This document shows, in pieces, positions 2,258-64,000 of a stretch of DNA of 64,000 bases. The notes below the pieces were generated by a model. It saw only the letters and a program-made list of their open reading frames with translations. It was not told where the DNA came from and searched no databases. This DNA is from Sthenelais limicola (lineage: Eukaryota; Annelida; Polychaeta; Phyllodocida; Sigalionidae). The DNA is taken from assembly GCA_942159475.1 (NCBI GenBank), contig OW804095.1, forward strand, positions 149,906,808 through 149,970,807, read 5' to 3'. The number at the start of each line of letters is the position of its first letter. The first letter of the stretch is position 1. A program made the translations under genes and the position numbers.

Positions 2258-2680
2258 TTTTTTTCCTCACTAGGAGGGTGGGGGGCTAACTAGGAGGTAG
2301 GGCTAACAGGTCGCTGAACCACTTTTGAATCCATCGCTGTTCCCATAGGACAATTCAGTGAACAGTTGCCGATGCTGGGACAGCAGTTTATGGGACTCTT
2401 TGCTCTGAGTTTGCTGCAACTATTGACTTGAAGTAGGCCTTTAGGGGCAACAACACACAGACATATACTCTTACCACAGGAAAGTGGAAGGAGATGTAGG
2501 GCCTTTATATAAAGTCTGAAGGGCAATGAGAGGGCTTTGCCCTTTCTTACTCCAGCAGGGTAACATGGAAGGGGCTTATGTTTGCTGCCCCCTCTCCCTC
2601 CCTCCTGCCTCACTTGCCCCACTCCTTCCGCCTTCCCTCTCTCCCTTTCCCTGCCCCCCCCTCTGCCCCCCTGAACCCAA

Positions 2681-3796
2681 GCTGCAGGTACTGGGTTCTA
2701 ACCCACACCTGTGCTAGGGTAGAGAGCTGCAGGTACTGGGTTCTAACCCACACCTGTGCTAGGGTAGAGAGCTGCAGGTACTGGGTGCTAACCCACACCT
2801 GTGCTAGGATAGAGAGCTGCAGGTACTGGGTTCTAACCCACACCTGTGCTAGGGTAGAGAGCTGCAGGTACTGGGTTCTAACTCACACCTGTGCTAGGGT
2901 AGAGAGCTGCAGGTACTGGGTGCTAACCCACACCTGTGCTAGGATAGAGAGCTGCAGGTACTGGGTTCTAATCCACACCTGTGTTAGGATAGAGAGCTGC
3001 AGGTACTGGGTTCTAACCCACACCTATGCTAGGATAGAGAGCTGCAGGTACTGGGTTCTAACCAACACCTATGCTAGGATAGAGAGCTGCAGGTACTGGG
3101 TTCTAACCAACACCTGTGCTAGGATAGAGAGCTGCAGGTACTGGGTGCTAACCCACACCTGTGCTAGGATAGAGAGCTGCAGGTACTGGGTTCTAACCCA
3201 CACCTGTGCTAGGGTAGAGAGCTGCAGGTACTGGGTTCTAACTCACACCTGTGCTAGGGTAGAGAGCTGCAGGTACTGGGTTCTAATCCACACCTGTGCT
3301 AGGTTAGAAAGCTGCAGGTACTGGGTTTTAACCCACACCTATGCTAGGATAGAGAGCTGCAGGTACTGGGTTCTAACCCACACCTGTGCTAGGATAGAGA
3401 GCTGCAGGTACTGAGTTCTAACCCACACCTATGCTAGGATAGAGAGCTGCAGGTACTGGGTTCTAACCAACACCTATGCTAGGATACCTGTGCTAGGGTA
3501 AAAAGCTGCAGGTACTAGGTTCTAATCCACACCTGTGCTAGGATAGAGAGCTGCAGGTACTGGGTTTTAACCCACTCCTGTGCTAGGGTAAAAAGCTGCA
3601 GGTACTGGGTTCTAACCCACTCCTGTGCTAGGGTAAAAAACTGCAGGTACTGGGTTTTAACCCATTCCTGTGCTAGGGTAAAAAACTGCAGGTACTGGGT
3701 TTTAACCCGCACTTGTGCTAGGGTAAAAAGCTGCAGGTACTGGGTTCTAACCCACACTTGTGCTAGGGTAAAAAGCTGCAGGTACTGGGTTCTAAC
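2681..3796. repeat. 45-bp minisatellite (about 25 copies), left part
   Basis: The unit is CTGCAGGTACTGGGTTCTAA followed by CCCACACCTGTGCTAGGRTAGAGAG. Variants are grouped: units in the first two thirds end GGATAGAGAG or GGGTAGAGAG, while units after about 3490 end GGGTAAAAAG. A truncated unit lies near 3480-3500. Because 45 is a multiple of three and the unit lacks stops, long frames appear on both strands; these are not genes. The array continues at 4194 after an inserted element. Confidence 0.95.
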
Positions 3797-5440: not shown

Positions 5441-5754
5441 GCCATCTTAGAAATACTGTTTATAGGGCTAACCAGAACTCTGTGGTCAAAGTCATGTCGA
5501 CATTTAAGGTCATAAAGGTACAGTAAGTGAAATGGGTGAAGGGCATGAGATCAAGGATTGACAATCGTGTTTTCAGTCAAGGGTTCCTGTGTCAACCTAT
5601 AGATGGCGTTAATCAAACATATCTTATAACTGAAATTGTTTAAAGACGTTCATGGTCTCTTATAGGACTAATAGCTAAGGATTGTTTCTATATAAGTCCA
5701 ACTTATTTGATAAAAGTAAAGGTTCTTAAGTATAAACATATCATATCATGATAC
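5441..5754. other. Non-coding DNA before the LINE
   Basis: No coding region or repeat was recognised. The 5' boundary of the LINE could not be fixed by a target duplication, so part of this stretch could belong to it. Confidence 0.35.
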
Positions 5755-5973
5755 TAGAGTCCTGAGCTTTCGAGGGGGACGGACGTGCTTTCAGAGAGTG
5801 GAAACAATACTACGAAAAACAAGCCATTATGAGGGTTATCCGTAGAGGAGAAACCCTGGAATAAGATATACGGGAAGTGCGGGTGATACCGATACGTGGG
5901 ACAGAAACAGTGAGTTAATTTGGTGCAATTTCTGGCCAGAATATTGAAATTTGTGTATGAAAATCGATCGAGA

Positions 5974-7914
5974 ATGGCTGAAAACAGTCAATTTTTTTAA
6001 TCGCTGGTCGCGGAGGCCGGCAACAAAGCGTTCACGCCCGCCGCTAATCTAAGATTACATAGCAAACTAGTGTTTGAAGCCCCATGTGTACCTCCATTCA
6101 AAGAACATGAATTGTATAGCATTGCGGATTACAGCCTAGACGACGATTCGCCCAGTCCTGAGCAATTAAAATCTTCAATTCGTATGTCACATGAAAATAC
6201 TGAATGTCTAGGTGGTAAAATTCAACATCTGATTTGTAACGACTGGGATATGAGAAGAGAAATGAGAAATCTTAGAGAGGATCTCAATAAAGTAATACTT
6301 GAAAAGAAATGTTTGGAGAAGAGAGTAGTAGAAATGGATATAGATCGCAGAAGATGCAACTTGATACTATCGGGCGTAAACGAATACAAACTAGAGAATA
6401 CGGTCGAATCAGCACATTATGTTCTGCAACAATTAGAAAAAAGGCTGTCAGTCAATGACATAGTTTCAGCAAAGAGAATCCCAATTAGAACAAAGGGAAC
6501 TAGACAAATACTAGTGAAATTGAGAGACGCGAGTAAAAGAGATTACATCTTCAACAGGCGGAAAGGCCTGAAGGACACAAAAGATTGTTTCTCAGTGTTC
6601 ATTAATGCAGATCTACCAGAAAGTGTTATTGAAACCAAGAACGATCTGAGATGTATCCAAGCGCATGTTAGTAGTATTGGTAAGAATGAGGTTGGCAAAA
6701 TTATCAAGGATACCATTACCATCAATGGAATCACGTATGAACATGATCAACTAGGAAATCTACCGGAGGGATTAACTCTCAGCGACGCCAAAACAGTAGA
6801 AACCAACCATGGAATATACTTTCAATCCAAATATAGTCCGCTCAGTAACTTTTATAAATGTAAAATCATGGTTAGAGGCGAGGAATATCACAGTGTGGAA
6901 CAAGCTTATCAATTCTGTCGTGCGAATGTACTTGGAGATAGAGATAGGGCGTCCCAGATATTCAACTGTTATGAGGCTAAAGAAGCTAAACGAATCGGCG
7001 GACAAATCGAATCGACTGATAAATGGGACAAAGTGAAAGTCGACGTAATGAGGGCAATTCTAAATGAGAAATTTGAACAAAATGAAGAGTTACAGGACTA
7101 TTTAGTAAGAACTGGACCGGTGCGGCTAAATGAAGCAACAAATGACAAATTCTGGGCATCCGGATGTCGATTGGGATCAGTATTGATGGAAGAAAAATCT
7201 CACAAAGGAGCGAACATAGTGGGACAATTGCTTGAAGAAATTAGACACCACTACAACACCAATTCGGAATTACCTGATAGATTGCAATTTCAATTTACAG
7301 GATTAGATGAAAGAGAGACAGACCGAACCACTAGTAACTCGCCCCGTAGAAGGCATTATGTAAGAGGTGGACAGAGGAATGACAATAGGAGAGAAAGAAC
7401 ACCAAGATCATATGAAACTGACCACACTAGCATGATTACTGACCAATCAGAAATAAACATGGTAGGACAGCCGATTCGAAATACTGAAGCCAAATCGAAA
7501 GACGAGTTGGAAAACAGATTTCAACCAGAGTGGAGGAGAGGTGCCCGTGCTGATCAGATCATAGACAGAACTCAGCAAAATAGAAACAGATCGCCCTCGG
7601 TCAAGCGACCACATAGTGGATCTACAAGTGAAGAAGAGAAAAATGTGAGTAGAAAACGAGATAAAAATGAAGTCCCACTATATTCTGAGAAAGCTGACAC
7701 GAATGTGGATAAATCATGGCGTTCAAACATGACACCTCTATGTAAAGCAAGCGATAATGTAACTGTAATATCTCCTCCAGCCAGGATCGCACCGATTATT
7801 GACGATGGAAATGTCCCCCAAAGCAATAGTTTTGAAAACCTAAGATCAGACCCGTTAAGCGGATTTGAGAAAGAAAATTCCAGTATATGTGCAAATGAAA
7901 TGGAATGCTCTTGA
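5974..7914 (+). CDS. LINE ORF1: coiled coil, L1-ORF1p-like RNA-binding region and NADAR domain
   Basis: The open frame runs to TGA at 7912-7914. The best initiator is ATG 5974, but TAA at 5998 interrupts the frame after eight codons; it is then open from 6001. Counting residues from the GTG at 6070 (614 aa): 40-92 are charged and heptad-like (coiled coil); 93-235 resemble the L1 ORF1p RRM and C-terminal domain (RRCNLILSGV, VSAKRI, QILVKLRD, FINADLPE). Residues 247-395 are a NADAR domain with KYSPLSNF (254-261), SVEQAYQ (275-281), KFEQN (334-338), TG (348-349), FWASG (361-365) and GANIVGQLL (380-388). After about 415 the chain is low-complexity, rich in Arg, Ser and Asp, with basic clusters (SRKRDK) suited to RNA binding or nuclear import. 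ORF1 proteins coat LINE RNA; the NADAR addition is unusual. The role of the NADAR domain is inferred, not known. Confidence 0.85.
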
Positions 7915-8000
7915 TAATTGCTATATTCCCTTTGAACATATGTACTCATGATGATAATTTCAATTATGTTTGCAGACGAAGAATCAGAAAGGTTTAGAGG

Positions 8001-8633
8001 ATGAACATTGAAAAGCTTACGTTAGTCCTCTCCGACTCTAGAGGGAGACACTTGATAGATCACCTAGGAAGCAACCCTAATATCGCAACTTATTCGTACC
8101 CAGGCTGGGGAATCGTAAAATTGGCACATAAGGCAAAGGAGATCTTCCCTGAGCTAATTCCGTCAAATATCGTGTTGATAGGAGGCATATGCGATTTCTG
8201 TCGTAAAAACCATATCACGAAAGAAATTAGTCTAGCAGAGGAAACTGAGGACATGTTAGCGAGATTGATGTTTGATAAATATACAGAGGCATTATCAGTA
8301 CTTGAGAGAGAACAAAGGATATCATATATAACACTGGGTGGATTGATCGGAATGGAACTAAATCGTGCGAACCATCTTGAAGGTATTTCTGATAAGCAGA
8401 ATATGATCAACAACGCAGTAATGACTATTAATGAGGATATACGTATGATGAATGAAAAAAGGGGTATACGACACATCTATCTGCATACCAGAGTGCACAG
8501 ATATCAACGTGGTAAACCTCGTCATTATCTGAACAAGATACCTGATGGTATACACGTAGACGACTCAATTGTGAAAGAGTGGGCTAAGCAAATTATAAAT
8601 TACCATGATGACCCGATCACCAAATTCCAGTAG
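8001..8633 (+). CDS. LINE small ORF: stand-alone SGNH/GDSL hydrolase-like protein
   Basis: This 210-residue protein starts at ATG 8001, 86 bases after ORF1 ends. SGNH blocks are in order: SDSRGR (11-16, candidate nucleophile Ser13), PGWG (34-37, block II glycine), GGICDF (61-66, block III, where the usual Asn is Cys64) and PDGIH (181-185, the Asp-x-x-His pair of block V). The length fits a single minimal SGNH domain. Esterase-type domains are known inside ORF1 of some CR1/L2-type LINEs; here the domain is a separate frame. Replacement of the block III Asn may mean altered or lost hydrolase activity. It lies between ORF1 and the hairpin-bearing spacer, so its translation would need reinitiation, an internal entry site or a separate transcript. 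Confidence 0.75.
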   Translation: MNIEKLTLVLSDSRGRHLIDHLGSNPNIATYSYPGWGIVKLAHKAKEIFPELIPSNIVLIGGICDFCRKNHITKEISLAEETEDMLARLMFDKYTEALSVLEREQRISYITLGGLIGMELNRANHLEGISDKQNMINNAVMTINEDIRMMNEKRGIRHIYLHTRVHRYQRGKPRHYLNKIPDGIHVDDSIVKEWAKQIINYHDDPITKFQ

Positions 8634-9449
8634 GGATCATACTGTATTATTATTTCTGATCAGATTCCTCGCTGCCAGACGGCAGGACTTCATTTCATAA
8701 ATAACACGATGACCCAATTGAAGAACATAACAACAACAAATGCACCATGTGAACCCGTTCATGCACAGCCGAGTGATGTAATACGGACAATTGTTTTCTC
8801 AACGCCTCAATACGCTGAATATGTTATTCACTGGGGAGTGCGCTCAAAGCGCCCCTCGACAAAGAATTGAAAGGATAATAGGATGCCCATAGATATACTT
8901 AGAACTATATGGCTTTCTGTATTAGCTCACAGTAATCAATGACTGCGCTTACAATAAGCCAGTCACTTACTAGATAGATTAATAGTGTGTAAAACAACTC
9001 TATTGTAACATGTCTCGCTCTTGTTCGTTTTCATTGCCTTCTATAAGTAAATCTGAATCGCTTCCACTTCAACATAACGTCTGCGCTTACAATAAGCCAT
9101 ACGAACAGTATATTAAGCCTCGATCTGCCGACTATCATAATGATTATTGCTATTATTGTTGCTTCGATTTAAACGTAACGTCTGCACTTACAATAAGCCA
9201 TACGAACAGTATATTATGCTTCGATCTGCCGACCATCAGAATGATTATTGCTATTATTGTTGTATCATATGTTTCAGTCAGAGTTGTATTATTTGTGAGA
9301 AAATTTAGGGATTGCGCTTACAATAAGCCAATTCCCCGTATAAAACCATGTATTATATATTGGAAGATGATAGAGAATGAAGCGCTTACAATAAGCCTTT
9401 TCAATACAGGACTTGTCTTAACTAATGTGACATACTGACCGTACTGACA
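8634..9449 (+). promoter_or_regulatory. LINE inter-ORF spacer with five hairpin motifs and a 101-bp tandem duplication
   Basis: The motif GCGCTTACAATAAGCC occurs at 8945-8960, 9083-9098, 9314-9329 and 9382-9397, and with one change (GCACTTACAATAAGCC) at 9184-9199. Each contains GCTTA-CAA-TAAGC, or CTTA-CAA-TAAG in the variant, a small stem with a three-base loop. Two lie in a tandem duplication of about 101 bp (about 9073-9262) that also repeats CATACGAACAGTATATTA and ATGATTATTGCTATTATTGT. A 142-codon frame (9010-9438) crosses this region and ends 12 bases before ORF2, but its content follows the repeats and it is not called a gene. The motif could be a protein-binding or translation-control element. 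Confidence 0.6.
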
Positions 9450-9899
9450 ATGGCCCTAAAAAACTGGACTGATATCACCAGAAAGAACGGTTTTAAAATT
9501 TTGCATCTGAACGTTAGATCAATAGTACAGAAAAAAGACTCCATACATCTGGACATATTAGAAAATAACCCAGAAGTGTTATGCCTATCTGAAACCTGGT
9601 TAAAATCTACTGTAGCGACAGAATACATATCTCACGACAACTATAACTGCATTAGAACTGATAGAGACAGTGATAAACATGGAGGAGGACTATGTACATT
9701 TATTAGGAAAGATTTAGACATAGACGAAATTACATTAGATACTGATAGAATCAAGAATATAGAAATCCAAGCGATGATTGTTAAGAAAGAGAACGTGAAA
9801 AGGAAATTAATCTTGTGTGTTTATAGGCCACCGGCATGTAACGTATTCGGAGGGACTAAGCGAACTATCAGACGTATTAGAGGAAATTATAGCCAATAA
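9450..9899 (+). pseudogene. LINE ORF2, 5' part: APE-type endonuclease N-terminal half, frameshifted
   Basis: ATG 9450 opens a frame with the start of an exonuclease-endonuclease-phosphatase fold: KILHLNVRSI (16-25, catalytic Asn block), LCLSETWL (44-51, metal-binding Glu), HGGGLCTFI (77-85) and LCVYRPP (122-128). Family similarity ends after YRPPACN, and the frame then runs into a stop at 9897-9899. The continuation (SEGLSELSDVLEEI, then GDFN) is in the +1 frame, so a single-base gain or two-base loss lies at about 9835-9860. This enzyme nicks target DNA to prime reverse transcription. With the shift, this copy cannot make intact ORF2 protein unless frameshifting occurs. Confidence 0.85.
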
Positions 9900-12318
9900 G
9901 CTAGCAAACAAGAGTAATTATGACACGATTATAGTAGGAGACTTCAACATAGATCTGATGGAAAAAACTGATAGGAAGTATATATTATTAGACCGATTTA
10001 GTAAGAAACACAGTCTAGAGATAAAAATGGACAATATTACTAGATATGGACTGCATAAAAACTCCATATTGGATTTCTATATGGTAAATATCAAGATTAA
10101 CTACAGCTATGGTATGATTGAATATAATATATCAGATCACCAGGGTATATACCTAAATATTAAATCTGAAAGAGAGATACGACAAGGAACAGAATTCACT
10201 GGAAGAGATTTTAAGAATTATACGCAAGAAAAATTAGCTAATTACTTGAAAGAATGTAACTGGGAATATTTATATTCATGTTTAGATATTGACGAAGCAT
10301 GGAACACGGTAGTAGAACAGATAAAGGAAGGAGCAAACAGACTTGCACCAAGAAGAAAATACAAATTTAAAGTAGAGAGACCTTCATGGTATGACGATAA
10401 CCTGGTACAATTAGCTAGAGAAAGAAAATTAGCATATAGGAAGGCAAATAGATCCAAAAACTTGGCCGACTTGAGCATCGCCAGACGATCTCGCAATGAT
10501 TTTAATAAAAGCCTGAAGCAAGCTAAGCAGCGATTCTATAGAAACCTATTAGATGTTAATAAGAATGATGGAAAGAAATTCTGGAGAATTGTGTCAGAAA
10601 TACAAGGGAAAAAAAATACCAATATTACTAGCTTATATAATAAGGACGGTGAAATCGTAAAAGGGACAGAACTAGCAAATCATACTAATGCATTCTTTTG
10701 CGAGATAGGTGAAAAGATACAAAATGAAATACCTCATATTGAGAATAATATAATACGAGAAAACTACAATAGACCGCTAGAACTGGAAGATATACAAGAA
10801 GAGGAGGTGTCAAAATTAATAAGAAAAATAGACATCAGCAAACCCTCCGGCTGTACAGATCTCAATAGCAGATTGTATAAGGATGGATTAATAGCAGTAA
10901 CGAAGCAATTGACCTATATATTCAACATCTCACTTAGTAAAGGTACTTTCCCGCTAGAGTGGAAGAGAAGTTTATGTAAAGCCATCCCTAAGAAGGAATT
11001 GCCCAGAACGGTGGAGGAAGTTAGACCGATTACCCTAGTACATACTGTAGGAAAAATACTGGAAAAATTAGTTACGCCGAGAATACAGGCACACTGCCTA
11101 GAAAACGATATTTTAAGTATAAATCAATATGGCTACCTGCCAGAAAGGGGAACAGCAGACGCACTGACAGCTCTGTTAAAACCACTAAATGAAGCTTTAA
11201 ATAACCAGGAGTTTGTACTAGCAATATTCATCGATTTTAGTAAGGCTTTTAACAGTGTGAACCATAATATTTTAATAGAAAAAATGGAAAAATGCGGGAT
11301 TGGAGGAGATTATTTAAAATGGGTTAAATCATACCTAGACAATCGGACGCAAAGAGTACAGGTAGGAGAGAACATCTCAGTAGAGTTAGACATAGGATGC
11401 GGAGTACCGCAGGGGTCAGTGTTAGGACCATTAATGTATCTAATTTATGCTAATGACATTAAAAATCTTAAAATGAAGAGTGATTGCATATTATATGCAG
11501 ACGATACCGTTTTATACCTCAAAGGAACAGATTTGAATACGCTGGAAGCAAGATTGGAGGAAGACATGACACTATTCTATGAGTGGTCAGTTGCGAATAA
11601 AATAAAAATAAATATTAAGAAGACGAAAAGTATGCTATTCACCCGGAAGAAAATAGAAAGATCGCCCAAAGTACGAATTAATAATATAGCATTAGAAAAC
11701 GTAGACAACTATGAATACCTAGGAATAAACCTGGATAGGAAGCTTAATATGTTGAAACAAGTAGGTTTGTTACATAAGAATCTAAACTATCGCATACACC
11801 AACTGAGTATTATGAGGCCCTATCTGACAGAACATGAGGCAATATTAATGCTGAAGACGTATATATTATCCATATTGGACTACAGCTTGCTGTTCCTAAC
11901 GCCGGTATGTAAAACAAAGTTGAAGAAAATACAACAATTGCAGAATAGAGCAATCAGAACAGCTCTGAAAGCTGATGTTAACGTATCTCGTGTCGAAATG
12001 CATGAAAAATGCAAGATTCTGTCAGTTACGAATAGACTAGAATTATTATTAATAAAAATGGGTAAAAAACAGAGTCGAAAAATAGAAAATACAGAACAGC
12101 CAGGAGTCACAAACAGAGCCACTAGACGGCATGATGGCATAATACTAAAACAGTTTATGCCCAGAACGGAATGTGACAAAAAATCGCTATCGTATCAAAT
12201 ATCCAGCAACTGGAATAAACTGAACAGTAACATTCGAAATCTAGACGACAATGGACTAAAGTCTCATTTAAAATATAGTTTATTATTAAGCCAACGCGAT
12301 CATGGCCACTTTGACTAA
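9817..12318 (+). CDS. LINE ORF2, 3' part: endonuclease C-terminal half and reverse transcriptase
   Basis: The frame is open to TAA 12316-12318; its real beginning is by frameshift from the preceding frame at about 9835-9860, not at ATG 9817. Numbering from 9817 (833 aa): endonuclease motifs GDFN (41-44), SILDFYMV (93-100) and SDH (106-108); a linker; then reverse transcriptase with KPSGCTDLN (342-350), VRPITLV (402-408), FIDFSKAF (471-478, first catalytic Asp), GVPQGSVLGPL (529-539), the catalytic YADD (560-563), and INIKKTKSMLF (598-608). A thumb-like region and LQNRAIRTALK (708-718) follow. This layout matches Jockey/CR1-superfamily LINEs without RNase H. The enzyme copies element RNA at a nicked target site. 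Confidence 0.92.
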   Translation: MFIGHRHVTYSEGLSELSDVLEEIIANKLANKSNYDTIIVGDFNIDLMEKTDRKYILLDRFSKKHSLEIKMDNITRYGLHKNSILDFYMVNIKINYSYGMIEYNISDHQGIYLNIKSEREIRQGTEFTGRDFKNYTQEKLANYLKECNWEYLYSCLDIDEAWNTVVEQIKEGANRLAPRRKYKFKVERPSWYDDNLVQLARERKLAYRKANRSKNLADLSIARRSRNDFNKSLKQAKQRFYRNLLDVNKNDGKKFWRIVSEIQGKKNTNITSLYNKDGEIVKGTELANHTNAFFCEIGEKIQNEIPHIENNIIRENYNRPLELEDIQEEEVSKLIRKIDISKPSGCTDLNSRLYKDGLIAVTKQLTYIFNISLSKGTFPLEWKRSLCKAIPKKELPRTVEEVRPITLVHTVGKILEKLVTPRIQAHCLENDILSINQYGYLPERGTADALTALLKPLNEALNNQEFVLAIFIDFSKAFNSVNHNILIEKMEKCGIGGDYLKWVKSYLDNRTQRVQVGENISVELDIGCGVPQGSVLGPLMYLIYANDIKNLKMKSDCILYADDTVLYLKGTDLNTLEARLEEDMTLFYEWSVANKIKINIKKTKSMLFTRKKIERSPKVRINNIALENVDNYEYLGINLDRKLNMLKQVGLLHKNLNYRIHQLSIMRPYLTEHEAILMLKTYILSILDYSLLFLTPVCKTKLKKIQQLQNRAIRTALKADVNVSRVEMHEKCKILSVTNRLELLLIKMGKKQSRKIENTEQPGVTNRATRRHDGIILKQFMPRTECDKKSLSYQISSNWNKLNSNIRNLDDNGLKSHLKYSLLLSQRDHGHFD

Positions 12319-12668
12319 ATCAACCACGTGCCGGTAATAACCTCACCCGCCCCCTCGACAAAACATTGACTCTGACGATGACAGACTAATCACATTTTAT
12401 TGTAAGAAAATTGTACATTGATTTTATTTGATAAGAGAGAAGACTGTACATCACATTTATAACAATATTTGATCATAAAGAATAAAGAACAGTAATTAAG
12501 GCAGGTGGTCATAAAATCGCCTCGCCGCGAGACCATGAATTTGTATGTACTGTCGGAAAAAAATAAATAAAAAAAAAAAAAAAAATAATTTAATTTTAAA
12601 GGCATCCTGCGGGATCCCTACTCCATAAGTATAATAATGGCTTTAAAGGAAATAAACTTGACTATTTA
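12319..12668 (+). other. LINE 3' UTR
   Basis: An A-rich run lies at about 12558-12585. Beyond it GGCATCCTGCGGGATCCC, then GGCTTTAAAGGAAATAAACT and a TAATAATAATA tail look like a typical short-repeat LINE end. Whether the element ends at the A-run or at the TAA tail is unresolved. Confidence 0.5.
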
Positions 12669-27204: not shown

Positions 27205-27221
27205 TTAAGCTCTGTCCTATA

Positions 27222-28410
27222 CGGTATATAATGTGTATAAACATGGGAAATGGTGTTTGTGCCAACCCCCCTATTGCTGCTTGACGGTATATAATGTGTA
27301 TAAAGATGGGAAATGGTGTTTGTGCAACCCCCCTATTGCTGCTTGACGGTATATAATGTGTATAAAGATGGGAAATGGTGTTTGTGCAAACCCCCCTATT
27401 GCTGCTTGACGGTATATAATGTGTATAAACATGGGAAATGGTGTTTGTGCCAACCCCCCTATTGCTGCTTGACGGTATATAATGTGTATAAAGATGGGAA
27501 ATGGTGTTTGTGCAACCCCCCTATTGCTGCTTGACGGTATATAATGTGTATAAAGATGGGAAATGGTGTTTGTGCAAACCCCCCTATTGCTGCTTGACGG
27601 TATATAATGTGTATAAAGATGGGAAATGGTGTTTGTGCAAACCCCCCTATTGCTGCTTGACGGTATATAATGTGTATAAAGATGGGAAATGATGTTTGTG
27701 CAAACCCCCCTATTGCTGCTTGACGGTATATAATGTGTATAAAGATGGGAAATGGTGTTTGTGCAAACCCCCCTATTGCTGCTTGACGGTATATAATGTG
27801 TATAAAGATGGGAAATGATGTTTGTGCAAACCCCCCTATTGCTGCTTGACGGTATATAATGTGTATAAAGATGGGAAATGGTGTTTGTGCAACCCCCCTA
27901 TTGCTGCTTGACGGTATATAATGTGTATAAAGATGGGAAATGGTGTTTGTGCAAACCCCCCTATTGCTGCTTGACGGTATATAATGTGTATAAAGATGGG
28001 AAATGGTGTTTGTGCAAACCCCCCTATTGCTGCTTGACGGTATATAATGTGTATAAAGATGGGAAATGGTGTTTGTGCAAACCCCCCTATTGCTGCTTGA
28101 CGGTATATAATGTGTATAAAGATGGGAAATGGTGTTTGTGCAAACCCCCCTATTGCTGCTTGACGGTATATAATGTGTATAAAGATGGGAAATGGTGTTT
28201 GTGCAAACCCCCCTATTGCTGCTTGACGGTATATAATGTGTATAAAGATGGGAAATGGTGTTTGTGCAACCCCCCTATTGCTGCTTGACGGTATATAATG
28301 TGTATAAAGATGGGAAATGGTGTTTGTGCAAACCCCCCTATTGCTGCTTGACGGTATATAATGTGTATAAAGATGGGAAATGGTGTTTGTGCAAACCCCC
28401 CTATTGCTGC
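27222..28410. repeat. 63-bp minisatellite, about 19 copies
   Basis: Unit CGGTATATAATGTGTATAAA / GATGGGAAATGGTGTTTGTG / CAAACCCCCCTATTGCTGCTTGA. Copies are nearly identical; some are 62 bp (CAACCCCCC) and a few carry AACATGG or ATGATG variants. The homogeneity indicates recent amplification. The end of the unit resembles the MITE B terminus. Confidence 0.95.
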
Positions 28411-29205
28411 TGGATGACTAGTCGTGTGAGGATCATCAGTTTGAGGTAAAGTTGTTCTTTCTTCCACAACGTGTCGCTACATGAGCACCTGTATAGCCCA
28501 CGCCCCCTGGTGGTGGCAACAAAGACTACATCTAGTGCGCCTACATCTCTCCAGGGGGCTCTGGCCATAGTGGCGGGAAATGTGCGTGCTTGATGAGAAT
28601 CGCTTATGGGGGTTGGTGGTGGTGGGGGGGGGGGGGGGTAGGGCAGGTAGGGGCAGGGGGGTATATGGCTGATGGTATTGGGCCTAATGGTAAGAGGAGT
28701 AGGGATATGATGAGTGAGAAAGGGGGAGGGATGGGGAAAAAGGGGGAAAGGCGGGTGAGGACTATGTGGTGTAAATGGCACTTAATGGACAGGTGTTGAC
28801 AGTAGGCGCCTACAGGTACTCTTAGATGTTACTGGGAGTCAAGGCAGGGGTGGGGGTGGGGGGGGGGGGGGAGTTATGAATGACTTAGAAACAACTCTAC
28901 TTGAGGTTAAGAACTACTGGTGCGATTCAATGGCCCGAGTTAGGATTTTATTTCGTATACAACAAGCGGTGAAATAAAATTGTAACAAAAGCCATCACAC
29001 GAGTAGTCCTTAACCTCAAGTACACAGCTTTAATACGTGATATGTGCTGCCCCCCTGTGACGTGTATTGAGCGTGACCCACTTGTATCATTACACGCACA
29101 GGAAGGGACGGAGATACCACTCTAGCTCACCCTGGGTTATATAGAGTACAGGAGTCAGTGCGGGTCAATGAACTCGCTCCATGAACGTACATATCATAGC
29201 ACTGC
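28411..29205. other. Non-coding with G-runs and a CTCF-like site
   Basis: Poly-G tracts lie at about 28625 and 28860. CGCCCCCTGGTGG at 28501-28513 (complement CCACCAGGGGGCG) is a close match to the animal CTCF core, and CCAGGGGGCTCTGG lies about 50 bp on. No gene was recognised. Confidence 0.4.
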
Positions 29206-32734: not shown

Positions 32735-33925
32735 ACACAACCCCTTTAGCTCCTCCCCTAGATCCCCCTTAGTCCCTCCCTTTCCCCCTTAGTCCCTCCC
32801 CTTTCCCCCTTAGTCCCTCCCCTTTCCCCCCTTAGCCCCTCCCCTATTCCCTTAGTCCCTCCCCTTTTCCCCCTTAGCCCCTCCCCTATCCCCTTAGATC
32901 CACCCCTATGCCCCTTAGTCCCTCCCTTTCCGCCTTAGCCCCTCCCCTTTCCCCCTTAGTCCCTCCCCTTTCCCCCCTTAGCCCCTCCCCTATTCCCTTA
33001 GTCCCTCCCCTTTTCCCCCTTAGCCCCTCCCCTATCCCCTTAGATCCACCCCTATGCCCCTTAGTCCCTTCCCTATTCCCCTTAGTCCCTCCCCTTCCCC
33101 CCTTAGTCCCTCCCCTTTCTCCCCTTAGCCCCTCCCCTATTCCCTTAGTCCCTCCCCTTTTCCCCCTTAGCCCCTCCCCTATCCCCTTAGATCCACCCCT
33201 ATGCCCCTTAGTCCCTTCCCTATTCCCCTTAGTCCCTCCCCTTCCCCCCTTAGTCCCTCCCCTTTCCCCCCTTAGCCCCTCCCCTATCCCCTTAGATCCA
33301 CCCCTATGCCCCTTAGTCCCTCCCTTTCCGCCTTAGCCCCTCCCCTTTCCCCCTTAGTTCCTCCCCTTTCCCCCTTAGCCCCTCCCCTATTCCCTTATTC
33401 CCTCCCCTTTTCCCCCTTAGCCCCTCCCCTATCCCCTGAGATCCACCCCTATGCCCCTTAGTCCCTTCCCTATTCCCCTTAGTCCCTCCCCTTCCCCCCT
33501 TAGTCCCTCCCCTTTCTCCCCTTAGCCCCTCCCCTATTCCCTTAGTCCCTCCCCTTTTCCCCCTTAGTCCCTCCCCTATCCCCTTAGTCCCTCTCCTATC
33601 CCCCTTAGAACCTAGCTTACATCTCTTTAGCCCCTCCCTATTTCCCATGCCCCTTGCCTATCCCTCTTAGATCCTCCCCTATTTCCCTCATTCCCCTATG
33701 CCCCTCTTACACCCCCTTAGTCCCTTCCCTATCTCCCTTAGTCCCTCCCCTATTTCCCCTTAGAACCTAGCTTACATCTCTTTAGCCCCTCCCTATTCCC
33801 CATGCCCCTCGCCTATTCGTCTTAGATCCTCCCTATTTCCCCCATTCCCCTATGCCCCTATCTAACACCCCCTTAACCCCTTCCCTATCGCCTTAGCCCC
33901 TCCCCTATTTCCCCTTAAGCCATCC
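32735..33925. repeat. C-rich degenerate minisatellite (CCCTTAGTCCCTCCCC)
   Basis: Basic unit of about 20-22 bp, CCCCTTAGTCCCTCCCCTTT, with many length variants. Blocks of about 150-210 bp containing TTAGATCCACCCCTATGCCC recur (about 32896, 33041, 33188, 33293, 33438), showing a higher-order level. Frames on both strands are artefacts. Confidence 0.9.
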
Positions 33926-38469: not shown

Positions 38470-40530
38470 CGTTGCCTTATCCTCTCTGTCTTCTATTCTC
38501 TCTTCTATTCTCTCTCTGTCTTCTATTCTTTCTCTCTGCGTCTTCTATTCTTTCTCTGTGTCTTCTATTCTTTCTCTGTGTCTCTATTCGTTCTCTCTCT
38601 GTCTTCTATTCTTTCTCTCTTTCTGTCTTCTATTCTTTCTCTCTTTCTGTCTTCTATTCTTTCTCTATCTGTGTCTTCTATTCTTTCTCTCCGTCTTCTA
38701 TTCTTTCTCTCTCCGTCTTCTATTCGTTCTCTCTCTGTCTTCTATTCTTTCTCTCTTTCCGTCTTCTATTCTTTCTCTCTCCGTCTTCTATTCTGTCTGT
38801 CTGTCTTCTATTCTTTCTCTCTGTGTCTTCCATTCTTTCTCTCTGTGTCTTCTATTCTTTCTCTCTGTGTCTTCTATTCTTTCTCTCTGTGTCTTCTATT
38901 CTTTCTCTCTCTCTGTCTTCTATTCTTTCTCTCTGTGTCTTCTATTCTTTCTCTCTGTGTCTTCTATTCTTTCTCTCTGTGTCTTCTATTCTTTCTCTGT
39001 GTCTTCTATTCTTTCTCTCTCCGTCTTCTATTCTTTCTCTGTGTCTTCTATTCTGTCTGTCTGTCTTCTATTCTTTCTCTCTGTGTCTTCTATTCTTTCT
39101 CTGTGTCTTCTATTCTTTCTCTCTGTGTCTTCTATTCTTTCTCTCTATGTCTTCTATTCTTTCTCTCTGTGTCTTCTATTCTTTCTCTGTGTTTTCTATT
39201 CTGTCTGTCTGTCTTCTATTCTTTCTCTCTGTGTCTTCTATTCTTTCTCTCTGTGTCTTCTATTCTTTCTCTCTGTGTCTTCTATTCTTTCTGTCTGTCT
39301 TCTATTCTTTCTCTCTGTCTTCTATTCTTTCTCTCTGTCTTCTATTCTTTCTCTGTGTCTTCTATTCTTTCTCTGTGTCTTCTATTCTTTCTCTCTGTGT
39401 CTTCTATTCTCTCTCTCTCTGTGTCTTCTATTCTCTCTCTCTCTGTGTCTTCTATTCTTTCTCCCTCTGTCTTCTATTCTTTCTCTCTCTGTCTTCTATT
39501 CTCTCTCTCTGTGTCTTCTATTCTTTCTCTCTGTGTCTTCTATTCTTTCTCTCTCTGTGTCTTCTATACTTTCTCTCTGTGTCTTCTATACTTTCTCTCT
39601 GTGTCTTCTATTCTTTCTCTCTCTGTGTCTTCTATACTTTCTCTCTCTGTCTTCTATTCTTTCTCTCTGTGTCTTCTATACTTTCTCTCTCTGTGTCTTC
39701 TATTCTTTCTCTCTCCGTCTTCTATTCTTTCTCTCTCTGTCTTCTATTCTTTCTCTCTCTCTGTCTTCTATTCTTTCTCTCTCTCTGTCTTCTATTCTTT
39801 CTCTCTCTGTGTCTTCTATTCTTTCTCTCTGTGTCTTCTATTCTTTCTCTCTGTGTCTTCTATTCTTTCTCTCTGTGTCTTCTATTCTTTCTCTCTCTGT
39901 GTCTTCTATTCTTTCTCTCTCTGTGTCTTCTATTCTTTCTCTCTGTGTCTTCTATTCTTTCTTTCTGTCTTCTATTCTTTCTCTCTCCGTCTTCTATTCT
40001 TTCTCTCTCTCTGTCTTCTATTCTTTCTCTCTCTGTCTTCTATTCTTTCTCTCTGTGTCTTCTATTCTTTCTCTCTGTGTCTTCTATTCTTTCTCTTTCT
40101 GTCCTCTATTCTGTCTGTCTCTCCGTCTTCTATTCTGTCTGTCTCTCCGTCTTCTATTCTTTCTCTCTCTCTCTGTGTCTTCTATTCTTTCTCTCTGTGT
40201 CTTCTATTCTTTCTCTTTCTGTCCTCTATTCTGTCAATCTGTCTTCTATTCTGTCTGTCTCTCCGTCTTCTATTCTTTCTCTCTCTCTGTCTTCTATTCT
40301 TTCTCTCTGTGTCTTCTATTCTTTCTCTCTCTGTCTTCTATTTTTTCTCTCTCTCTGTCTTCTATTCTTTCTCTTTCTGTCCTCTATTCTTTCTCTCTCT
40401 GTCTTCTATTCTTTCTCTCTCTGTCTTCTATTCTTTCTCTTTCTGTCCTCTATTCTGTCTGTCTGTCTTCTATTCTGTCTGTCTTCTCTTCTGTCTCTTC
40501 TATTCTGTCTCTTATTCTCTCTTATATTCT
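38470..40530. repeat. Pyrimidine-rich 22-bp minisatellite, about 2 kb
   Basis: Unit CTTCTATTCTTTCTCTCTGT plus GT, varying from 18 to 26 bp by gain or loss of CT and GT dinucleotides, with CCGT, CTGTCTGT and TTTCTGTCC variants. All three plus-strand frames are open for about 680-720 codons because the unit has no stops in any frame; this is not a gene. Confidence 0.95.
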
Positions 40531-50390: not shown

Positions 50391-50392
50391 TG

Positions 50393-52552
50393 TGTTTATC
50401 CCTGGTATAAGTTATATAGGGAAAGATGTGTTTATCCCAGGTATAAGTAGTATAGGGAAAGATGTGTTTATCCCTGGTATAAGTAGTATAGGGAAAGATG
50501 TGTTTATCCCAGGTATAAGTAGTGTAGGGAAAGATGCAGGTATAAGTAGTATAGGGAAAGATGTGTTTATCCCAGGTATGAGTAGTATAGGGAAAGATGT
50601 GTTCATCCCTGGTATAAGTAGTAGAGGGAAAGATGTGTTTATCCCAGGTATAAGTAGTAGAGGGAAAGATGTGTTTATCCCTGGTATAAGTAGTATAGGG
50701 AAAGATGTGTTTATCCCAGGTATAAGTAGTAGAGGGAAAGATGTGTTTATCCCTGGTATAAGTAGTAGAGGGAAAGATGTGTTTATCCCTGGTATAAGTA
50801 GTATAGGGAAAGATGTGTTTATCCCCAGTATAAGTAGTATAGGGAAAGATGTGTTTATCCCAGGTATAAGTAGTATAGGGAAAGATGTGTTTATCCCAGG
50901 TATAAGTAGTATAGGGAAAGATGTGTTTATCCCCAGGTATAAGTAGTATAGGGAAAGATGTGTTTATCCCTGGTATAAGTAGTATAGGGAAAGATGTGTT
51001 TATCCCTGGTAAAAGTAGTATAGGGAAAGATGTGTTTATCCCTGGTATAAGTAGTATAGGGAAAGATGTGTTTATCCCAGGTATAAGTAGTATAGGGAAA
51101 GATGTGTTTATCCCCGGTATAAGTAGTATAGGGAAAGATGTGTTTATCCCAGGTATAAGTAGTATAGGGAAAGATGTGTTTATCCCTGGTATAAGTAGTA
51201 GAGGGAAAGATGTGTTTATCCCAGGTATAAGTAGTATAGGGAAAGATGTGTTTATCCCTGGTATAAGTAGTAGAGGGAAAGATGTGTTTATCCCTGGTAT
51301 AAGTAGTATAGGGAAAGATGTGTTTATCCCTGGTATAAGTAGTAGAGGGAAAGATGTGTTTATCCCTGGTATAAGTAGTATAGGGAAAGATGTGTTTATC
51401 CCAGGTATAAGTAGTATAGGGAAAGATGTGTTTATCCCAGGTATAAGTAGTATAGGGAAAGATGTGTTTATCCCAGGTATAAGTAATATAAGGGAAAGAT
51501 GTGTTTATCCCAGGTATAAGTAGTATAGGGAAAGATGTGTTTATCCCAGGTATAAGTAATATAAGGGAAAGATGTGTTTATCCCTGGTATAAGTAGTATA
51601 GGGGAAGATGTGTTTATCCCAGGTATAAGTTATATAGGGAAAGATGTGTTTATCCCCAGTATAAGTAGTATAGGGAAAGATGTGTTTATCCCCAGGTATA
51701 AGTTATATAGGGAAAGATGTGTTTATCCCAGGTATAAGTAGTATAGGGAAAGATGTGTTTATCCAAGGTATAAGTAGTATAGGGAAAGATGTGTTTATCC
51801 AAGGTATAAGTAGTGTAGGGAAAGATGTGTTTATCCCAGGTATAAGTAGTATAGGGAAAGATGTGTTTATCCCTGGTATAAGTAGTATAGGGAAAGATGT
51901 GTTTATCCCAGGTATAAGTAGTATAGGGAAAGATGTGTTTATCCCTGGTATAAGTAGTATAGGGAAAGATGTGTTTAGGTATAAGTAGTATAGGGAAAGA
52001 TGTGTTTAGGTATAAGTAGTATAGGGAAAGATGTGTTTATCCCCAGTATAAGTAGTATAGGGAAAGATGTGTTTATCCCTGGTATAAGTAGTATAGGGAA
52101 AGATGTGTTTATCCCAGGTATAAGTAGTATAGGGAAAGATGTGTTTATCCCAGGTATAAGTAGTATAGGGAAAGATGTGTTTATCCCCAGGTATAAGTAG
52201 TATAGGGAAAGATGTGTTTATCCCCAGGTATAAGTAGTATAGGGAAAGATGTGTTTATCCCTGGTATAAGTAGTATAGGGAAAGATGTGTTTATCCGAGG
52301 TATAAGTAGTATAGGGAAAGATGTGTTTATCCCTGGTATAAGTAGTATAGGGAAAGATGTGTTCATCCCCAGTATAAGTAGTATAGGGAAAGATGTGTTT
52401 ATCCCCAGGTATGAGTAGTATAGGGAAAGATGTGTTTATCCCAGGTATAAGTAGTATAGGGAAAGATGTGTTTATCCCAGGTATGAGTAGTATAGGGAAA
52501 GATGTGTTTATCCCAGGTATAAGTTATATAGGGAAAGATGCGTTCATCCCCA
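50393..52552. repeat. 36-bp minisatellite, about 60 copies
   Basis: Unit GGTATAAGTAGTATAGGGAA / AGATGTGTTTATCCCA. Positions 34-36 of the unit alternate between CCA, CCT and CCCA variants, and AGTAGTAGAGGG units cluster at 50620-51350. Because 36 is divisible by three, a GISSIGKDVFIP-type frame stays open until one-base longer units (CCCCAGG) break it; this is not evidence for a gene. Confidence 0.96.
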
Positions 52553-54766: not shown

Positions 54767-57700
54767 CATAATGTCTGTCAGTCTATGGCAGTCTGTATAA
54801 TGTCTGTCAGTGTATGGCAGTCTGTATAATATCTGACAGTCTATGGCAGTCTGTATAATGTCTGACAGTCTATGGCAGTCTGTATAATCTCTGTCAGTCT
54901 ATGGCAGTCTGTATAATGTCTGTCAGTCTATGGCAGTCTGTATAATGTCTGTCAGTCTATGGCAGTCTATATAATGTCTGTCAGTCTATGGCAGTCTGTA
55001 TAATGTCTGTCAGTCTATGGCAGTCTGTATAATGTCTGTCAGTCTATGGCAGTCTGTATAATGTCTGTCAGTCTATGGCAGTCTGTATAATGTCTGTCAG
55101 TCTATGGCAGTCTGTATAATGTCTGTCTGTCTATGGCAGTCTGTATAATGTCTGTCTATGGCAGTCTGTATAATGTCTGTCAGTCTATGGCAGTCTGTAT
55201 AATGTCTGTCAGTCTATGGCAGTCTGTATAATGTCTGTCAGTCTATGGCAGTCTGTATAATGTCTGTCAGCGTATGGCAGTCTGTATAATGTCTGTCAGT
55301 CTATGGCAGTCTGAATAATGTCTGTCAGTCTATGGCAGTCTGAATAATGTCTGTCAGTCTATGGCAGTCTGTATAATATCTGACAGTCTATGGCAGTCTC
55401 TGTAATGTCTGTCAGTCTATGGCAGTCTGTATAATGTCTGTCAGTCTATGGCAGTCTGTATAATGTCAGTCTATGGCAGTCTCTGTAATGTCTGTCAGTC
55501 TATGGCAGTCTGTATAATGTCTGTCAGTCTGTACCCGTCTGTATAATGTCTGTCAGTCTATGGCAGTCTGTATAATGTCTGTCTATGGCAGTCTGTATAA
55601 TGTCTGACAGTCTATGGCAGTCTGTATAATGTCCGTCAGTCTATGGCAGTCTGTATAATATCTGACAGTCTATGGCAGTCTGTATAATGTCTGTCAGTCT
55701 ATGGCAGTCTGTATAATGTCTGACAGTCTATGGCAGTCTGTATAATGTCCGTCAGTCTATGGCAGTCTGTATAATGTCTGACAGTCTATGGCAGTCTGTA
55801 TAATGTCTGTCAGTCTATGGCAGTCTGTATAATGTCTGACAGTCTATGGCAGTCTATATAATGTCTGTCAGTCTATGGCAGTCTATATAATGTCTGTCAG
55901 TCTATGGCAGTCTGTATAATGTCTGTCAGTCTATGGCAGTCTGTATAATATCTGTCAGTCTATGGCAGTCTGTATAATGTCTGTCAGTGTATGGCAGTGT
56001 GTATAATGTCTGTCAGTGTATGGCAGTCTGTATAATGTCTGTCAGTCTATGGCAGTCTGTATAATGTCTGTCACTCTATGACAGTCTGTATAATGTCTGT
56101 CAGTCTATGGCAGTCTGTATAATGTCTGTCTATGGCAGTCTGTATAATGTCTGTCAGTCTATGGCAGTCTGTATAATGTCTGTCAGTCTATGGCAGTGTG
56201 TATAATGTCTGTCAGTGTATGGCAGTCTGTATAATGTCTGTCAGTGTATGGCAGTCTGTATAATGTCTGTCAGTGTATGGCAGTCTGTATAATGTCTGTC
56301 AGTCTATGGCAGTCTGTATAATGTCTGTCAGTCTATGGCAGTCTGTATAATGTCTGTCTATGGCAGTCTGTATAATGTCTGTCAGTCTATGGCAGTCTGT
56401 ATAATGTCTGTCAGTCTATGGCAGTCTGAATAATGTCTGTCAGTGTATGGCAGTCTGTATAATGTCTGTCAGTCTATGGCAGTCTGTATAATGTCTGTCA
56501 GTGTATGGCAGTCTGTATAATGTCTGTCAGTCTATGGCAGTCTGTATAATGTCTGTCAGTCTAAGGCAGTCTGTATAATGTCTGTCAGTCTATGGCAGTC
56601 TGTATAATGTCTGTGAGTCTATGGCAGTCTATATAATGTCTGTCACTCTATGACAGTCTGTATAATGTCTGTCAGTCTATGGCAGTCTGTATAATATCTG
56701 TCAGTCTATGACAGTCTGTATAATGTCTGTCAGTGTATGGCAGTCTGTATAATGTCTGTCAGTCTATGGCAGTCTGTATAATGTCTGTGAGTCTATGGCA
56801 GTCTGTATAATGTCTGTCACTCTATGACAGTCTGTTTAATGTCTGTCAGTCTATGGCAGTCTGTATAATGTCTGTGAGTCTATGGCAGTCTGTATAATGT
56901 CTGTGAGTCTATGGCAGTCTGTATAATGTCTGTCAGTCTATGGCAGTCTGTATAATGTCTGTGAGTCTATGGCAGTCTGTATAATGTCTGTCACTCTATG
57001 ACAGTCTGTATAATGTCTGTCAGTCTATGGCAGTCTGTATAATGTCTGTCTATGGCAGTCTGTATAATGTCTGTCAGTCTATGGCAGTCTGTATAATGTC
57101 TGTCAGTCTATGGCAGTGTGTATAATGTCTGTCAGTGTATGGCAGTCTGTATAATGTCTGTCAGTGTATGGCAGTCTGTATAATGTCTGTCAGTCTATGA
57201 CAGTCTGTATAATGTCTGTCAGTCTATGGCAGTCTGTATAATGTCTGTCTATGGCAGTCTGTATAATGTCTGTCAGTCTATGGCAGTCTGTATAATGTCT
57301 GACAGTCTATGGCAGTCTATATAATGTCTGTCAGTCTATGGCAGTCTATATAATGTCTGTCAGTCTATGGCAGTCTGTATAATGTCTGTCAGTCTATGGC
57401 AGTCTGTATAATATCTGTCAGTCTATGGCAGTGTGTATAATGTCTGTCAGTGTATGGCAGTGTGTATAATGTCTGTCAGTGTATGGCAGTCTGTATAATG
57501 TCTGTCAGTCTATGGCAGTCTGTATAATGTCTGTCACTCTATGACAGTCTGTATAATGTCTGTCAGTCTATGGCAGTCTGTATAATGTCTGTCTATGGCA
57601 GTCTGTATAATGTCTGTCAGTCTATGGCAGTCTGTATAATGTCTGTCAGTCTATGGCAGTGTGTATAATGTCTGTCAGTGTATGGCAGTCTATATAATGT

Positions 57701-63700: not shown

Positions 63701-64000
63701 CTGTCAGTCTATGGCAGTCTGTATAATGTCTGTCAGTCTATGGCAGTGTGTATAATGTCTGTCAGTGTATGGCAGTCTATATAATGTCTGTCAGTCTATG
63801 GCAGTCTGTATAATGTCTGTCACTCTATGACAGTCTGTATAATGTCTGTCAGTCTATGGCAGTCTGTATAATGTCTGTCAGTGTATGGCAGTCTGTATAA
63901 TGTCTGTCAGTCTATGGCAGTCTGTATAATGTCTGTCAGTCTATGGCAGTCTGTATAATGTCTGTCAGTCTATGGCAGTCTGTATAATGTCTGTCTATGG
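54767..64000. repeat. 29-bp satellite array, over 9.2 kb, continuing past the window
   Basis: Unit TCTGTCAGTCTATGGCAGTC plus TGTATAATG, more than 300 copies. A 25-bp variant (TCTGTCTATGGCAGTCTGTA plus TAATG) recurs through the array. Rare variants mark higher-order duplication: CTAAGG at 56561, 58741, 60349 and 61008, and TCTGAATAATG at 56425, 58605, 60213 and 60872, both giving spacings of 2180, 1608 and 659. No coding potential; short frames near 62 kb are repeat-derived. It could be pericentromeric, subtelomeric or an interstitial block. Confidence 0.97.

Follow-up and report, generated by a model that had tools for sequence, protein, structure and literature searches.

A conserved NADAR domain inside ORF1 of a diversified LINE family in the annelid Sthenelais limicola

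A NADAR domain was found inside the first open reading frame (ORF1) of a LINE (non-LTR retrotransposon) of Sthenelais limicola; the domain is real, is carried across the LINE family, is old and is constrained. The element was studied in a window of 64,000 nucleotides (C2:149906808-149970807 of the 1.13 Gb assembly), and the same genome was searched for relatives. Coordinates refer to this window, and all the element's features lie on the + strand.

Architecture of the element and of its family

The copy in the window is approximately 6.8 kb long, from its 5' end to an A-rich tail (5763..12585), as delimited by homology with three 98%-identical siblings, which extends from 5751-5763 to 12585-12595. 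It shows the hallmarks of a LINE, namely an endonuclease and a reverse transcriptase (RT), an A-rich 3' tail (12557..12585), dispersed copies and 5' truncation. No convincing target-site duplication was found at its ends.

ORF1 (6070..7914) encodes 614 aa; its frame is open from 6001 and its start is tentative. A TAA at 5998 directly precedes the open frame. The open codons of ORF1 number 637 in the window copy and in two 98% siblings and 666 in two other 98% siblings, so that the start position may, on sequence grounds, differ between copies. The encoded protein comprises a predicted coiled coil (6193..6378; a helix of the AlphaFold2 model, model residues 3-64), a putative L1-like RRM plus C-terminal RNA-binding region (6355..6783), the NADAR domain (6826..7248, ORF1 residues 253-393) and a tail that evolves faster (7255..7911). 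Comparison of window-like with divergent lineages showed the RNA-binding region to be conserved (hhalign probability 97.4); neither RRM nor CTD gave a profile match, Pfam included, or a PDB match.

ORF2 was recognized in two parts: a first part with the start of an AP-type endonuclease (9450..9899; PF03372, E 1.2e-4), where the frame changes in the window copy, and a main part with the end of the endonuclease and the reverse transcriptase (9817..12318; RVT_1 at 10984-11733, PF00078 E 1.3e-33). Since ORF2 is split over two frames here and forms one 963-codon frame in six other copies (94-99% identical), the window copy is broken in ORF2 and intact copies exist.

A separate ORF of 210 aa that resembles SGNH hydrolases, with the blocks DSRG, GGICD and DGIH, is located after ORF1 (8001..8633). 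Such an ORF was present in nine of the 20 loci retrieved around NADAR matches (see below) and absent from ten other RT-bearing loci, namely nine members of divergent lineages and L178, which is window-like but decayed. Its motifs were conserved in seven copies (window, L180, L182, L186, L190, L193 and L195): the Ser and the Asp-x-x-His are kept, and the block-III (oxyanion) Asn is replaced by Cys in 7/7, within GGICD in six copies and TGICE in one. Lipase_GDSL_2 was matched by one of the seven members (E 0.006), no PDB match was obtained, and the single-sequence model of the protein was poor (pLDDT 49).

Five copies of the motif GC[G/A]CTTACAATAAGCC sit between the SGNH-like ORF and ORF2 (8938..9398). 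Four have a perfect 5-bp stem, and two fall within a 101-bp tandem duplication. As a marker shared by the wider family this inter-ORF hairpin motif was rejected, its core being present in 0/20 other loci, none of them a 98% sibling.

Tandem arrays occupy other parts of the window. A 29-bp repeat in about 321 copies (54768-63995) almost reaches the window end, and arrays with units of 36 bp (50391-52550), 22 bp (38499-40522), 63 bp (27221-28411), 42 bp (32741-33763) and 45 bp (2680-3796) were also observed.

The window element belongs to a large and diversified LINE family with young, recently active copies. The NADAR search of the genome yielded 5,561 first-look candidates, the best 150 of which were scored; all of these best-scoring 150 matches passed the Pfam cut-off, two with an internal stop. 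Twenty loci of approximately 9.4 kb were retrieved around NADAR matches, and endonuclease/RT sequence, whole or in pieces, followed downstream on the same strand in 19 of them, L183 being the sole exception. The linkage of ORF1, NADAR and RT, which the earlier note proposed to look for in other genomes, was upheld in the animal's own genome. Pfam searches of four other elements (L179, L180, L190 and L195) recovered NADAR in 4/4 ORF1s and RVT_1 in 4/4 ORF2s. In divergent lineages, where complete, ORF1 has about 630-650 aa and ORF2 about 950 aa; the ORF2s of L179, L187, L191 and L194 are 25-26% identical to that of the window.

The search with the window ORF1 gave 72 listed matches among 6,065 candidates. 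Among those listed, four matched the full 614 residues at 98% identity, the identity of the others ranged from 97% (partial) to 42%, and 58 of the 72 spanned both residue 120 and residue 390. Queries of viral contigs with ORF1, NADAR and ORF2 gave no relative.

Linkage was also followed from the RT side. Out of 58 listed RT matches, 49 start within the first 60 query residues, and for at least 29 of these an ORF1 match lies at most 6.5 kb upstream; in the reverse view, an RT match was located downstream of at least 29 of the 64 listed ORF1 matches that span the NADAR domain. A partner missing among the matches listed carries little weight. Upstream DNA was read for seven of the 20 unlinked RT matches and contained one full ORF1 with NADAR, four truncated ORF1s and two cases without ORF1. 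L239 has the RNA-binding region and NADAR upstream of RT; the upstream homology ends inside NADAR in L236 and in the tail past NADAR in L235, L237 and L238; L233 and L234 have no ORF1 sequence. Of these seven RT copies, for which no ORF1 match was listed, six lack ORF1 wholly or in its 5' part, which is 5' truncation as usually seen in LINEs. None of the seven has an RNA-binding region that lacks NADAR.

The earlier note had named a one-off insertion as the case against it. That case is ruled out: 150/150 of the best NADAR matches pass the cut-off, 58/72 listed ORF1 relatives span both residues, and among the copies examined the RNA-binding region never occurred without NADAR. An artefact, be it a match by chance or the single capture of a host gene in one copy, is likewise refuted by the many copies, the many lineages, the co-inheritance with RT and the constraint described below; nothing was found in its favour, and its probability is next to nil.

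The NADAR domain and its ligand pocket

The claim of the earlier note that a full NADAR lies in ORF1 (placed there at 6808..7254), and its proviso that a significant match might fail to appear, were settled in favour of the domain. The window domain scored 103 bits against PF08719 (Pfam cut-off 35.1) and 95.5 against TIGR02464 (TIGRFAM cut-off 73.7); PDB and fold matches were also found among the matches listed, the fold being that of YbiA. The presence of a NADAR domain, folded by prediction, inside the LINE ORF1 is thus confirmed.

Pocket residues were numbered after the NADAR structure of P. nicotianae (PMC11543638). Glu277 (6898..6900) corresponds to E43, a distal-ribose contact, and Glu355 (7132..7134) to E125, the YbiA-type catalytic glutamate and a marker of the YbiA subfamily. 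Arg284 (6919..6921) occupies the position of K50, an ADP-ribose contact that is Lys in most NADARs, and Gly311 (7000..7002) the position of R79, which also contacts ADP-ribose.

Pocket residues were compared in 41 copies (the window, 20 loci and 20 short stretches), which, except for the window, were drawn from the best NADAR scores, a choice that favours conserved residues. The equivalents of E43, E125, K75, W89 and W133 were invariant (41/41 each). The D130 equivalent was Asp in 35 copies and Asn in six; the K50 position was Lys in 21, Arg in 17, among them the window family, and another residue in three; and the G134 position was Gly in 25 and Ala in 16. At the R79 position a basic residue (Lys) was present in two copies, both of non-LINE type (L215 and L216), and the residue was non-basic in 39/39 LINE-type copies, 18 of which were retrieved as the NADAR stretch alone and one of which, L183, has no RT downstream.

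Additionally, a window-family set was assembled from the window and ten ORF1s picked by whole-ORF1 similarity. The equivalents of E43, W89, E125, D130 and W133 were kept in 11/11, and Lys was found at the R79 position in three of the ten further ORF1s (L224, L225 and L226). Over a total of 48 LINE-type copies (L220 being the same as L207), this position is Arg in none and Lys in three. For comparison, bacterial and phage NADARs have Arg or Lys there in 63 of 68 cases (60 random draws plus eight phages) and neither in five. The full bacterial and viral set held 159 of 160 loci plus eight phages, 162 of them distinct; its residue values of 100% are inflated, because the search patterns included some of these residues.

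L215 (C1:94854654-94856279) and L216 (C1:66982587-66984212) each contain a standalone NADAR ORF of 160 aa with Lys at the R79 position (Pfam E 3e-31 for L215). Next to the L215 copy is a fragment of an ORF, without Pfam match, whose stretch YQFHGCYFHGH is reminiscent of Polinton-type DNA polymerase B. The L215 neighbourhood may represent another class of mobile element that carries a NADAR.

R79 is a ligand contact and not a defining feature of NADARs. It is truly replaced in these elements and its replacement therefore counts against the classic ligand; it suggests that the ligand is held somewhat differently than by the classic enzymes, e.g., within a polynucleotide bound by the neighbouring region. 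Given the replacement of R79, the Arg at the K50 position in the window lineage and the Asn at the D130 position in six copies, the substrate or the efficiency may differ. In the E. coli C7 NADAR, the change K95R is described as retaining hydrolysis in vitro without rescuing cells (PMC11543638). The pocket retention raised in the earlier note holds in part: a relaxed pocket was rejected for the catalytic glutamates, as E43 and E125 are kept in all LINE-type copies examined, and the ligand contacts R79 and K50 vary.

These same changes, the replaced R79 and the altered K50 of the window lineage, would also fit a domain without catalysis, acting as a reader or scaffold that binds ADP-ribosylated nucleic acid, a nucleotide or cap structure, or an RNA factor of the host, and aiding the assembly or placement of the ribonucleoprotein (RNP); the RNA complex of the nematode protein SNA-3 with CBC-ARS2 is reported to make use of NADAR domains (PMC9303266). 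However, both catalytic glutamates are invariant across lineages with NADARs 34-53% identical to that of the window, which speaks against a pure binder, because in such a protein one lineage or another should have dropped the E125-type residue. We regard this alternative as unlikely, while giving it some weight.

Inheritance, selection and proposed function

Trees of RT-bearing ORF2 and of NADAR were compared for 16 elements, and their main groups agreed. Common groups were (i) the window element (WIN), L182, L186, L195 and L196, (ii) L177, L179 and L185, (iii) L184, L187 and L188, and (iv) L192 and L194. The trees disagreed in fine branching (L191 and L182/L195), and L180 and L190 were unsettled in the NADAR tree. 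RT and NADAR distances were correlated over the 16 elements (r 0.92) and over ten lineage representatives (Mantel r 0.83), with 0/9,999 permutations as high in either case. A single old acquisition of NADAR followed by vertical inheritance is the simplest reading of these sequences. In a tree of LINE, bacterial and phage NADARs, the domain set holding no named animal NADARs, the LINE NADARs were separated with a support of only 0.68, by a split that also includes the non-LINE L215 and L216.

The dN/dS ratios were calculated by the method of Nei and Gojobori, and pairs with dS ≤0.02 or ≥1.2 were dropped; the pairs are non-independent and values of dS near 1 are imprecise. NADAR ratios were 0.036-0.071 (11 pairs, dS 0.47-1.19), in accordance with the constraint that the earlier note had proposed to look for in synonymous and nonsynonymous rates. 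The N-terminal part of ORF1 gave 0.052-0.076 (5 pairs, dS 0.63-0.89), ORF2 0.076-0.111 (3 pairs, dS 0.62-0.98) and the ORF1 tail 0.245-0.635 (6 pairs, dS 0.38-0.79). Very young NADAR pairs (dS <0.05) had ratios of 0.09-0.38 (8 pairs), higher, as expected, because the neutral decay of dead copies adds in. Between the window and two 98% siblings, NADAR dN was 0.003 and dS 0.07-0.11 (ratios 0.026 and 0.039). Within the window's subfamily the contrast between tail and NADAR is weaker: among the pairs for which dS could be counted, eight had tail ratios of 0.083-0.370 and one had 0.605. In comparisons with saturated NADAR dS (window versus L219, L220, L221 and L222), dN of the tail was 2.4-3.3 times that of NADAR. 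The NADAR domain is under strong purifying selection across the old branches of the family.

A LINE produces single-stranded cDNA where it inserts, and its RNA is generally taken to be coated by ORF1p. Among the NADARs assayed, eukaryotic ones included, removal of ADP-ribose from guanine in single-stranded DNA has been reported (PMC11543638, PMC11125620, PMC10789625). A constrained NADAR with both glutamates fits, for these reasons, an enzyme that demodifies nucleic acid within the RNP. We tentatively propose, at slightly less than an even chance, that the domain is an N-glycosidase in the RNP that removes base-linked ADP-ribose and so undoes a host block. The ORF1p, in the order coiled coil, putative RNA-binding region, NADAR and tail, would coat the RNA and cDNA of the element and thereby position NADAR inside the RNP. 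The domain would act as an ADP-ribosyl (or related) N-glycosidase during target-primed reverse transcription, candidate substrates being base-linked ADP-ribose on the element RNA, the single-stranded cDNA or the nicked target, and the outcome would be reversal of a block by host mono-ADP-ribosylation. The reading of the earlier note, in which the domain removes or binds ADP-ribose on RNA, cDNA or proteins of the element, for instance against a PARP-type host defence, is thus supported in part: the domain, its linkage to RT and its constraint bear it out, and the substrate and the counter-defence are proposals.

The target may instead be a protein. ZAP is PARP13, a PARP-family protein. ZAP has been reported to restrict human LINE-1 (PMC4441479, PMC4423928), in line with a NADAR that strips ADP-ribose from ORF1p, ORF2p or the products of PARP1/2 at the nicked target; on the other hand, the NADAR literature consulted for assays names no protein substrate, and the NADARs assayed act on guanine. 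A protein target is very unlikely. Somewhat less improbable, although still quite unlikely, is the destruction of a soluble ADP-ribose-derived signal or NAD product of host immunity in place of a nucleic-acid modification. Such action is proposed for many phage and viral NADARs in PMC9503650, where macromolecular targets are preferred for the NADARs of eukaryotic RNA viruses; the present domain is, moreover, embedded in a putative RNA-binding ORF1p and is not a free enzyme.

If the N-glycosidase reading is carried further, the elements may constitute an ancient LINE superfamily with its own ORF1p eraser of nucleic-acid ADP-ribosylation. This possibility, which we hold to be rather less than probable, would imply an undiscovered host defence that ADP-ribosylates bases in the RNA or cDNA of retrotransposons, together with an arms race during which the LINE NADARs changed their ligand pocket (R79) and kept the catalytic glutamates.

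The physiological role of animal NADARs is presented as an open question in PMC11125620. Two questions become jointly testable in a LINE family that has young copies and a constrained NADAR retaining both catalytic glutamates: the substrates of eukaryotic NADARs, and the use by hosts of nucleic-acid ADP-ribosylation against retrotransposons.

Comparison with known systems

Of 16 ORF2s, 12 have the RT motif GVPQGS[IVL]L[GA]P and four have variants of it that differ by one residue. This motif is of Jockey/CR1/L2 style and not of L1/Tx1 style; judged by it, the elements look like members of the Jockey/CR1/L2 group and not of Tx1.

The earlier note knew of no described LINE family with a NADAR. 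The finding is partly anticipated, since the fusion of NADAR and LINE ORF1 as such is already in print (PMC12477816, 2025). That paper, the one among the literature consulted to link NADAR with retrotransposons, reports the domain in the Pol of Ectocarpus Gypsy elements and in the ORF1 of Tx1 LINEs from Crassostrea gigas, and suggests RNA processing. The oyster elements, compared here by description alone, share a YbiA-family NADAR in a LINE ORF1 and were reported from Repbase hits as Tx1; the part of the paper devoted to them describes no selection, RT linkage or co-inheritance, pocket analysis or SGNH-like ORF. The Ectocarpus Gypsy element is likewise a retrotransposon with NADAR, but an LTR element that carries it in another protein (Pol), and a possible horizontal transfer from bacteria is suggested for it (PMC12477816).

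Enzymes inside LINE ORF1p are rare, and ORF1ps bearing SGNH were termed unique in having an enzymatic function (PMC3905857). The type II ORF1s of the Jockey superfamily (coiled coil-RRM-CTD) resemble the present one in combining a coiled coil with a putative RNA-binding region (PMC4120745, PMC3905857). Type IV ORF1s (SGNH esterase) recall the SGNH-like protein of part of the window's family, which differs in being encoded by a separate ORF and in that its oxyanion Asn is replaced by Cys. NADAR, YbiA and DUF1768 go unmentioned in the main text of PMC4120745, which covers 448 elements.

With regard to single NADAR proteins, the window domain differs from those of P. nicotianae (8bau) and E. coli YbiA (2b3w) by the Gly at R79, the Arg at K50 and its embedding in an ORF1p, and from E. 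coli YbiA also by a longer loop after the FW motif. The nematode SNA-3 (PMC9303266) is, like the ORF1p described here, an animal RNA-associated protein with NADAR, whereas it is a host trans-splicing factor with three NADAR domains and not part of a transposon.
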